Shown here in pieces: positions 27,568-40,046 of a stretch of 43,274 nt of DNA. The DNA lies in assembly GCA_029780855.1 (NCBI GenBank), contig JAKOXV010000024.1, positions 1-43,274 on the forward strand, given 5' to 3'. Origin of the DNA: a bacterium (GTDB lineage: Bacteria; Patescibacteriota; Saccharimonadia; Saccharimonadales; JAUPVS01). A program made the translations under genes and the position numbers. The notes under the pieces were generated by a model. The model was not told the DNA's origin. It saw only the letters and a list, made by a program, of their open reading frames with translations, and ran no database searches. Each line of letters starts with the position of its first letter. Within the stretch, counting starts at the first letter, position 1.

Positions 27568-27720
27568 GACGCAGTTTCGTCGTTTACGACTCGTCAGCAT
27601 GATTCATGTACTCATGGACTGCGTAGGTGAGAAGAGGTAATGGGATCGCGTGAGCGATCAACCAATAGAGTTCTCCTCACAGGAGATTAGCGTTCTCCCG
27701 AACGGGTTGTTTTGTTATAG
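27568..27720 (+). ncRNA. Candidate structured intergenic RNA ending in terminator-like hairpin
   Basis: ACGCAGT...ACTGCGT long-range stem enclosing GTCGT-TT-ACGAC; GTGAGAAGAG...TTCTCCTCAC stem enclosing GATCGC-GTGA-GCGATC; then CCCG-AA-CGGG followed by TTGTTTTG. Strand assignment tentative. Confidence 0.4.
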
Positions 27721-27809: not shown

Positions 27810-28505
27810 TCAGTCCGACGTCTCTCCGTCATCGATGACGGCAGTCGCCTGACCGTTGGAGCCATGGCCGTTCATGGAGCCGTTGCCGAGGCTCTTCATG
27901 AGCATGGCTCCGAGTCCACCGACGATGTCCTGGTTGCCCTGTGGGGTGATGTGCATCACCTTGAGCTCCATCGGGTCGACTTGTTGCATCGCCGTCTCCG
28001 TGCCGTGGGAGATGATCTCTCCGAACGTCTCGGTGGGGGTGATGACAACGAAGCCGATGGGATGGATGGGGGCAGTCGTGCCTGGCGGCAGAACGGGACG
28101 CTGGACACCTCGCATGCCGCCGTTGTACAGGAAGTGGCGGACGTCCTCGAAGTTGCCGAACTCCGCCTTGTAGGTGGCGGACTTGGCGCCCGTCGGAAGC
28201 GGCACCCCGACCTGCGAGATGACCAACCCGATGTGATCAGGGGGGACCTGAACCCACGGGTAGCGCTTGACCGAGTAGAACGGCCAGACCTTGATGCGCA
28301 TGCCGGGCATGAGCAGGTCGGCCTGGTAGCCGGCCTCACCGTTGAGGGCGATCAGGCTGTTGCTCTTCTTGCCGAAGCGCTTGGTGACGAGACCGACCTG
28401 GCTCGGGTCGATCGCGTGGAATGAATTCTTGAGCACCAGCAACACGAGGAGTGCCACCAGTACTACGGGGATGATGATTTGGAAAGGAACGCTGTCCAGG
28501 TTCAT
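27810..28505 (-). CDS. Short SPFH/band-7-like membrane protein (N-terminal part of the large SPFH family)
   Basis: Start MNLDSVPFQII with AAAGAGG SD; one N-terminal TM; VPPDHIGLVISQVGVPLPTGAKSATYKAEFGNFEDVRHFL...GVQRPVLPPGTTAPIHPIGFVVIT resembles the conserved N-terminal segment of long SPFH proteins; GC-rich third positions. Confidence 0.75.
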   Translation of the reverse strand: MNLDSVPFQIIIPVVLVALLVLLVLKNSFHAIDPSQVGLVTKRFGKKSNSLIALNGEAGYQADLLMPGMRIKVWPFYSVKRYPWVQVPPDHIGLVISQVGVPLPTGAKSATYKAEFGNFEDVRHFLYNGGMRGVQRPVLPPGTTAPIHPIGFVVITPTETFGEIISHGTETAMQQVDPMELKVMHITPQGNQDIVGGLGAMLMKSLGNGSMNGHGSNGQATAVIDDGETSD

Positions 28506-28547
28506 TGAACCTCTTTCTCTGTTGGTGAATGGAGGACAAGCTAAAAA

Positions 28548-28576
28548 ATTATAGTATCTTTTTGTAATATAGTCAA
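28548..28576 (-). promoter_or_regulatory. Sigma-70-like promoter for the SPFH gene
   Basis: Minus strand TTGACT-N17-TATAAT. Confidence 0.75.
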
Positions 28577-28649
28577 TATAATGTGCCTCATACAATACAG
28601 CTTCCGCTTCCTTAGCAGCACAGCCTGAAGCTGCTATACTTTTGCATAT

Positions 28650-29447
28650 ATGAAGATTTATAGTTGGAATGTAAACGGCATACGTGCCGTAGTGCGCAAA
28701 GAAGCACTCGAACCGTTTATCAAGAAGCACCAGCCAGACATCCTATGTCTCCAAGAAACAAAGGCAGAGCAGGGTCAGGCGGTAATTGATCTGCCCGAGT
28801 ACGAGGAATACTGGAACTCATCTAAGACCAAGAAAGGTTACTCCGGAACGGCGATATTCACAAAAATCAAGCCGATTTCCGTCCACAACGATATTCCAGA
28901 AAAGTTTGTAAAGTCAGCCGGACTGCTTGCCGATAGTTATGGTCATAGCAATGACGAAGGACGGGTGATGACAGCAGAGTTTAAAGACTTTTTTCTCGTT
29001 ACTGCATATACACCAAATGCCAAGGATGACCTAACCCGCATCCCGTTACGAGAAAAATGGGATCAGGCGATGATAGCGTACTGTGCAGACCTGCAAAAAA
29101 AGAAACCTGTCGTGTACTGTGGAGATATGAATGTGGCGCATACGGAAGACGACCTAGCTAACCCAAAGCCAAATATTGGCAAAAAAGGGTTTACCGCAGA
29201 AGAACGTTCAGGTTTTGACGACTGGCTGGCAGCTGGGTTTGTTGACACGTTCCGTATGTTTAAACAAGGAAATGGCTACTACACCTGGTGGAGCCATTTT
29301 GCCAATGCTCGCGCTCGTAACGTTGGCTGGCGGATAGACTACTTCCTCGTTTCCGATGCGCTCAAAAGCAACGTAAAGACCGCTGATATTCACCCCGACA
29401 TTACCGGCTCGGACCACTGTCCGGTCAGTATAGAATTGGAGATATGA
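28650..29447 (+). CDS. xth: Exodeoxyribonuclease III
   Basis: MKIYSWNVNGIRAVVRK, ILCLQETKAEQ, YCGDMNVAHTEDDL, WRIDYFLVSDAL, GSDHCPVSIEL. Confidence 0.96.
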   Translation: MKIYSWNVNGIRAVVRKEALEPFIKKHQPDILCLQETKAEQGQAVIDLPEYEEYWNSSKTKKGYSGTAIFTKIKPISVHNDIPEKFVKSAGLLADSYGHSNDEGRVMTAEFKDFFLVTAYTPNAKDDLTRIPLREKWDQAMIAYCADLQKKKPVVYCGDMNVAHTEDDLANPKPNIGKKGFTAEERSGFDDWLAAGFVDTFRMFKQGNGYYTWWSHFANARARNVGWRIDYFLVSDALKSNVKTADIHPDITGSDHCPVSIELEI

Positions 29448-39626: not shown

Positions 39627-39854
39627 CTACGCTTGAGCCTCAAAACGCTGGACTGCATCGGTGACATCTTTAGCTAATCGGTCTATCTTTTGTTCTAGCA
39701 GTTCAATCTCATCTTCTACATGGGCTAGCTTGGCGAGCGACGTCGCGGTCATACTCTTCAGCTTCTCGGCTTGGGCATTGGCGTCGTTAAGCCGAGCTTC
39801 GCTTTCATAAGGATCCCAAAAACTAAATTGTTCTTCATCAAAATTATCTGTCAT
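39627..39854 (-). CDS. Small coiled-coil protein (75 aa)
   Basis: MTDNFDEEQFSFWDPYESEARLNDANAQAEKLKSMTATSLAKLAHVEDEIELLEQKIDRLAKDVTDAVQRFEAQA; AAAGG SD just upstream. Confidence 0.75.
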   Translation of the reverse strand: MTDNFDEEQFSFWDPYESEARLNDANAQAEKLKSMTATSLAKLAHVEDEIELLEQKIDRLAKDVTDAVQRFEAQA

Positions 39855-39857
39855 TTT

Positions 39858-39915
39858 TGCTACCTTTCGTCCTTTTGGACTCATCAGCGTAAGCACACAC
39901 TTACGGAGGATAGCA
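39858..39915 (-). ncRNA. Type III hammerhead ribozyme
   Basis: Minus strand UGCUAUCCUC|CGUAAG-UGUGUG-CUUACG-CUGAUGA-GUCC-AAAA-GGAC-GAAA-GGUAGCA: complete CUGAUGA/GAAA core, stem I 6 bp, stem II 4 bp, stem III 8 bp with one bulged U, NUH site CUC. Confidence 0.87.
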
Positions 39916-40022
39916 CGGAGTGGTTGATTCAGAAGAGGGAAGAGTCTTACGCTGGAGGCGTAATGCTCGATTCCATTCTGAACCAACACACTCACGTGAC
40001 CTGAAATTCAGGATTTGTGAAC
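39913..40022 (-). repeat. Direct repeat/structured element, copy 1 (93 bp identical core 39913-40005)
   Basis: Core identical to 43158-43250; folds as a long hairpin on the minus strand; flank AAATCCTG/CAGG conserved. Confidence 0.95.
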
Positions 40023-40046
40023 GGATGTTCCGTTCAGGAGGGAAGG

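Follow-up and report, generated by a model that had tools for sequence, protein, structure and literature searches.

The stretch of DNA analysed here, called the window below (43,274 nucleotides in all), carries on its minus strand a hammerhead-like sequence lodged between an operon for a ubiquitin-like (UBL) protein and a small open reading frame (ORF) of 75 codons. The question raised by this locus is which of its two neighbours the ribozyme serves, and how. An earlier note had read it as a hammerhead ribozyme (HHR) in the 5' leader of the small gene. In the present analysis the ribozyme stands and its assignment changes sides: it is very probably a module of the 3' untranslated region (3'UTR) of the UBL operon. 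The explanation that best accounts for the observations as a whole, in which we place somewhat better than even confidence, is that the mRNA 3' end of this operon is made by a ribozyme and capped by a hairpin. Table 1 collects the features concerned.

The sequence, coordinates and strand that the earlier note had given for the HHR proved exact. The core segments CUGAUGA and GAAA are complete, as it had said, and the core CUGANGA ... GAAA is invariant in the family alignment. Stem II is GUCC/GGAC as described, and stem I, noted as CGUAAG/CUUACG, is extended by a U-G pair that closes a GUGU tetraloop. Stem III, UGCUA(U)CCU/AGGUAGCA, is confirmed as 3 bp at the core, one bulged U and then 5 bp. 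The assignment to type III, with an open stem III and a CUC triplet, was borne out by the anatomy, by a lineage covariance model and by covariation in the family, where the U16.1-A15.1 pair of the NUH triplet (here CUC) is invariant in 36 sequences. Cleavage would leave a 2',3'-cyclic phosphate on 39906 and a 5'-OH on 39905. The native fold reaches -17.8 kcal/mol against a minimum free energy (MFE) of -18.2, and 0 of 200 shuffled sequences fold as well; within its native 210-nt context the computed MFE is 4.2 kcal/mol lower than the HHR fold, another fold being slightly favoured. A scan of the window with the 23-nt core pattern, at up to 3 mismatches, returned 2 sites against 0.01 expected from shuffles, and a chance origin of the pattern is excluded.

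The earlier note had proposed a run of the Rfam covariance models; with a lineage model added, the answer is divided. The Rfam match (RF00008) is local (39907-39865) and its 29.2 bits fall under the curated cut-off of 48.5 (the E value is 2.2e-4 when 361 nt are searched and 0.026 over the whole window); Rfam alone is weak support. The lineage model, R1, was built from 33 relatives; neither the target nor the UBL-linked HHRs from two other genomes (G009 and G181) were among them, and the model scores the target at 66.0 bits (E 8e-20). The low Rfam score is due to the short loops and the bulged U in stem III. A match to mir-3202 near the target was rejected, as it is merely the 3'UTR hairpin. 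That the element is a genuine hammerhead we regard as nearly certain, and every structural feature examined places it in the type III class; self-cleavage itself we infer.

Table 1. Features of the UBL locus and of the second hammerhead in the window (nt positions in the window)
Feature	Position	Strand	Evidence and remarks
Gene with the second HHR in its 3'UTR	27810..28730	-	Stop about 185 nt upstream of the HHR
Second type III HHR	27569..27624	-	5-bp stem I class with longer loop; Rfam 48.9 bits, above cut-off; R1 50.1 bits
75-aa ORF	39627..39854	-	Neighbour outside the unit; starts about 3-4 nt past the HHR; orphan; GC 46%
Type III HHR (target)	39858..39915	-	Sequence, Rfam, lineage covariance model, folding, pattern scan
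HHR stem III	39915-39907 with 39865-39858	-	Sequence
HHR stem I	39905-39899 with 39894-39888	-	Sequence
HHR stem II	39880-39877 with 39872-39869	-	Sequence
Predicted cleavage site	39906 / 39905	-	3' of C17 (C39906 = H17); core position, family alignment
Long imperfect hairpin of the UBL 3'UTR	39917..39996	-	Folding; its 3' arm adjoins stem III of the HHR; corresponds to the hairpin upstream of most family members
Two small hairpins (40036-40018, 40012-40000)	40000..40036	-	Folding; just past the UBL stop
Ubiquitin-like protein, 82 aa	40047..40295	-	Last operon gene; ends in NG; GC 71%
ThiF/E1-like adenylyltransferase, 218 aa	40309..40965	-	Pfam ThiF, E 5.8e-23
JAB-like protein, 206 aa	40965..41585	-	Weak Prok-JAB match, Pfam E 0.0012, below cut-off
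Conserved cassette partner, 408 aa	41585..42811	-	Hydrophobic N-terminal half; tblastn to the UBL cassettes of other genomes; synteny

The earlier note, right about the target itself, had overlooked both the hairpin of its 3'UTR and the second, stronger HHR of the window. The gene in front of this second HHR encodes a product with no Pfam match, which by eye would resemble SPFH/flotillin proteins; a plus-strand ORF at 27864-28424 is probably a spurious antisense frame. R1 finds two more HHRs on the same contig, at 67366-67418 and 68079-68131 on the plus strand. These two (HHR3 and HHR4; contig C15 67366-68131, L371 7366-8131) are near-identical tandem copies 713 nt apart; between them lies a probable 107-aa ORF with a 5' leader able to pair with the sequence immediately ahead of HHR4 (fold z -6.2).

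A search of the order with RF00008 at E<=0.01 detected HHRs in 69 of 393 genomes, with up to ten per genome. Just 3 of these 69 pass the curated cut-off, and 137 distinct HHRs were extracted from the 69 as the family set. The class of the target has a 7-bp stem I with a UGUGUA-like loop and a NAAA loop on stem II. Positions in loops I and II are strongly conserved in the family alignment, as would be expected if the two loops touch. In an alignment of 36 sequences, 96% of the base-pair cells hold a pair, both partners vary in 14 of 17 pairs, and covariation scores 0.85 (0.25 when shuffled), figures that share the bias of a motif finder that picks stems towards pairing. Because of that selection, sites chosen by their core and the held-out model are the fair tests. 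Among exact matches to the core and stem II only, taken from GTDB genome contigs and viral contigs, stems I and III are in place in 90% of 119 listed GTDB sites and 85% of 74 viral-contig sites, against 0.3% with shuffled flanks.

Of the genomes searched with R1, 84 of 295 in the class and 43 of 333 in the phylum carry a match. An exact pattern scan of GTDB genomes gave at least 116 stretches, and among the 80 matches listed, 64 have a stated lineage, which for 62 is Patescibacteria (Saccharibacteria, Parcubacteria, Microgenomates groups and others), besides one Phycisphaerales and one Polynucleobacter bin; as the pattern was built from this lineage, these counts describe breadth within Patescibacteria and make no statement of absence elsewhere. 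The exact pattern also matches 80 viral contigs, their HHRs lying between genes, about 30 nt past a stop and about 22 nt ahead of a start. In the phage contigs from IMG/VR (L291-L370), up to several type III HHRs stand between genes, and their stem III sequences are strikingly alike (CCTCCGT/CGGAAACC).

The gene nearest upstream of the target is the last of the operon, and its stop codon lies 131 nt before the HHR. An AlphaFold model of its product (pLDDT 72) has ubiquitins as top Foldseek matches (probability 1.00, E 0.0015), so that the protein is predicted to fold like ubiquitin. Homologues of the JAB-like protein stand beside ThiF in order-mates. Two further operon genes lie upstream, past the window (contig C15 43333-45164 on the minus strand, L131 59-1890); in two other genomes, G009 (L048) and G141 (L075), the first two operon genes form a separate HHR-ended unit. 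The pair ahead of the UBL operon looks like an HTH-like gene and a DGQR/ParB-like gene. The GC content of the operon is 54-71%, against a background of 46%, and the source genome (G000) amounts to 872,261 bases in 24 contigs. A Pfam scan of the target's neighbours returned no phage gene; the locus is an island of UBL genes.

This island sits between gltX and a conserved 855-aa gene. The two are only 566 nt apart in another genome, G010, where the same spot holds a different small gene with a hairpin and an HHR. Relatives of the UBL operon in two genomes of other families (G009 and G181) also end in an HHR, and one in G150 in a weaker variant; in G009 the operon is on a different contig from gltX. 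Across these three genomes the downstream neighbour changes while the HHR stays with the UBL operon. Within the order, the HHR adjoins the ThiF relative in just 4 of the 17 genomes that have one, so that the UBL system does not depend on it.

The family as a whole has a clear position relative to genes. A same-strand gene lies upstream of 118 of 134 HHRs, against 37% for a null of intergenic gaps without a hammerhead (p=6e-34), and the downstream gene is on the same strand in 92 of 134 (null 63%, p=0.15). In a second set of 20 HHRs from the R1 search, mostly outside the order, the upstream gene is on the same strand in 20 of 20 and the downstream gene on the opposite strand in 11 of 19. The HHR thus follows a same-strand gene and is indifferent to the strand of the next, which makes it a 3'UTR element. 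The distance from stop to HHR is mostly 50-140 nt, with a median of about 95-97. Stop positions come from an in-house codon-usage gene caller, which got the gene ahead of the window's second HHR wrong; a few of the negative upstream calls are therefore probably errors. Given this family-wide 3' position, the target HHR very probably ends a horizontally acquired UBL/JAB/ThiF operon.

A long imperfect hairpin almost always separates the stop from the HHR, its 3' arm ending 0-14 nt (median 2) short of HHR stem III. Hairpins above threshold occur in 78% of HHR 3'UTRs, against 39% of those without an HHR (p=1e-7), and they also exceed shuffled sequences. In the stems, G-U outnumber A-C mismatches by 230 to 127 (p=5e-8), an excess indicating that the hairpin is kept as RNA, with selection on the transcribed strand, that of the ribozyme. 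The UBL unit of G009 has a comparable extra hairpin past its stop. Classical intrinsic terminators were considered and rejected: a terminator-like hairpin with a T-run stands between stop and HHR in 8 of 135 cases, whereas 65 of 321 control 3'UTRs have one (p=7e-5), so that they are rarer before HHRs than after other genes.

From these features the following mechanism can be proposed. The transcription unit of the UBL operon would consist, past the stop codon, of a long RNA hairpin and, as its last element, a constitutively folding type III HHR. RNA polymerase would read through operon, hairpin and ribozyme; the HHR would then cut 3' of C39906, so that the operon mRNA would end in the hairpin and, behind it, a tail of some 10 nt carrying a 2',3'-cyclic phosphate, while the downstream RNA would begin with a 5'-OH at stem I. 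Together, the hairpin and the ribozyme would act as a hairpin plus U-tract does, defining and protecting the mRNA 3' end. Cleavage would also detach the operon mRNA from whatever follows the insertion point, which would suit units transferred into arbitrary places. The computed features beneath this proposal are the fold and its covariation, the 3'UTR place, the RNA-level hairpin, the scarcity of terminators, the GC-rich units and a homology that ends at the HHR. Self-cleavage, protection of the 3' end and the benefit to transferred units we infer, and for 3'-end formation as the function of the HHR our confidence is about evenly balanced. RtcB is absent from all 16 of the 16 genomes examined, so cleaved ends would not be rejoined by the RtcB route.

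The alternative that survives best is the processing of a polycistronic transcript, in which the HHR would separate the UBL mRNA from co-transcribed downstream RNA and the resulting 5'-OH message may be what matters. Such processing has been proposed for prophages (Perreault et al. 2011, PMC3088659), the phage contigs described above carry the same HHR type between closely spaced genes, and the 75-aa ORF follows the target at 4 nt. The downstream genes, however, show no same-strand preference, those of the second set being convergent in the majority. Promoter-like sequence past the HHR is common, but equally so on both strands (90 sense, 88 antisense), so that no promoter is claimed there. We consider processing unlikely as the main function.

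3'-end formation by ribozyme cleavage also has to be set against readings in which the HHR is incidental, and here the genes attached to the family are informative. The genes ahead of HHRs have a mean GC content 8.5 points higher than that of their locus, and 85 of 113 exceed it by more than 5 points; they have few Pfam matches, are mostly unrelated to one another and are mostly unannotated accessory genes. Two of them match the Thoeris inhibitor Tad4. These homologues of the Type I Thoeris inhibitor (L038 8834-8502 and L092 3556-3152, both on the minus strand) stand directly before a hairpin and HHR. Three units are common to distant genomes (L038/L050, L071/L375 and L054/L058, with identities of 85%, 69% and 73%); their homology starts before or within the gene and is lost at most 3 nt from the 3' end of the HHR, whereas at vertically inherited loci similarity continues through it. 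In one genus, only 4 nt lie between hinT and rlmH in one genome (G296), and in sister species the two genes are split by a gene with hairpin and HHR (G208) or by hairpin and HHR alone (G164); in G093 an unrelated gene with hairpin and HHR precedes rlmH, hinT not being adjacent.

The loss of homology at the HHR, together with the differing cassettes held by the hinT-rlmH and gltX sites, would also fit a DNA-level cassette site, in which hairpin and HHR act like an integron attC site or a transposon end and the ribozyme is incidental. This is improbable, as the G-U bias reflects selection on the RNA strand, and conservation of the core with compensatory stem changes demands catalysis and not DNA recognition. 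Similarly improbable is a neutral passenger with no current role, acquired along with phage-derived genes: the occurrence of the same HHR type in phage contigs and its patchy presence in the class are in its favour, but intact cores and extensive compensatory change across many genera imply selection, and the position after the stop codon is fixed.

Two arrays deserve description. In one genome (L036, G353:C13:2951-10889) four consecutive, short and unrelated-looking ORFs form a cassette-like array, each preceded by similar promoter/leader-like sequences and followed by a hairpin and HHR. In a Parcubacteria contig (L191 2475-6528 on the plus strand, JANLIU010000041.1), 9-10 HHRs, with neighbours often 135-440 nt apart, form a satellite-like ribozyme array, several of them in a stretch without called genes. 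Such arrays, the near-identical HHR3 and HHR4, and the ability of stem III arms of tandem copies to pair could be taken to suggest RNA-based mobility, in which HHR-ended monomers from tandem units circularise and re-insert as in plant retrozymes. This is very improbable here: besides the missing RtcB, reverse transcriptase is present in only 5 of the 16 genomes and in neither this genome (no RVT_1) nor G009, transferred units end at the complete HHR and not at the cleavage site, and the target is a single copy.

The weakest reading is the one from which the earlier note started, that cleavage or folding of a 5' leader would control translation of the 75-aa gene: a GAAAGG about 8 nt ahead of its AUG could be a ribosome site overlapping the core and stem III, and the AUG is 3 nt from the HHR end, but the ORF is an orphan (no credible homologue in 385 order-mates, the best hit spanning 58 aa of a 402-aa frame at E 7e-4) with the GC content of the background and not of the operon, while the HHR is kept with the upstream UBL gene across varying neighbours and the whole family sits in 3'UTRs, so that this reading is strongly disfavoured. 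As the ORF starts 4 nt past the HHR, a second role acting on it is conceivable.

Tails made of a hairpin and a ribozyme, of which the target is one, are widespread on genes acquired horizontally by Saccharibacteria and other Patescibacteria. Tentatively, Patescibacteria may use HHRs in general to make the 3' ends of transcripts of horizontally moving genes, in a portable and self-contained unit of promoter, gene(s), hairpin and ribozyme, bounded on its 3' side by catalytic RNA, with the HHR perhaps taking part in mobility too. A rule that holds across a lineage, with a fixed place after the stop, an adjoining RNA hairpin and horizontally transferred units, makes the role of a bacterial HHR directly testable. 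If true, it would mean that host-dependent bacteria with small genomes form mRNA 3' ends by means of a natural ribozyme, and HHR tails would be a marker for their mobile cargo, among it a ubiquitin-like conjugation operon and proteins related to an anti-defence protein. A chromosomal hairpin-plus-HHR 3'UTR rule for Patescibacteria was not found in the open-licence literature, which is no proof that it is unpublished.

Several known systems resemble parts of this locus. Bacterial ubiquitin-like operons (BilABCD, E1-E2/JAB) likewise combine UBL, ThiF/E1-like and JAB-like genes, and BilD/E1 models weakly match the ThiF of the target operon, its other genes having no PADLOC match; unlike them, the target operon is hammerhead-terminated and has extra genes that do not match known functions. 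With the RF00008/sTRSV type, the target shares the core, three stems, an open stem III and a NUH site, and the conserved loop I and loop II sequences of its family could make a tertiary contact. It differs in the tight 4-nt loops of its class (consensus UGUGUA on stem I, NAAA on stem II), in the low Rfam score of many family members and in a chromosomal 3'UTR location beside a long hairpin. Retrozymes, plant retroelements with type III hammerheads (reviewed in PMC6155905), have tandem copies, as does the family in some genomes; by contrast, the units here are protein-coding, the target is single-copy, this genome has no reverse transcriptase and the boundary is not at the cleavage site. Finally, HHRs are known to flank prophage genes, where the processing mentioned above was proposed (PMC3088659), and a 2023 paper found them enriched near Mu-like phage genes, calling the reason for the gene association unknown (PMC10085705). 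Like the present family, phage and prophage HHRs are placed after genes, often several per region, with variable gene content. However, they lie between the genes of a polycistron, whereas the family is found mostly on chromosomal accessory units, about 95 nt past the stop and behind a long hairpin, and its next gene is often convergent or separately transcribed.
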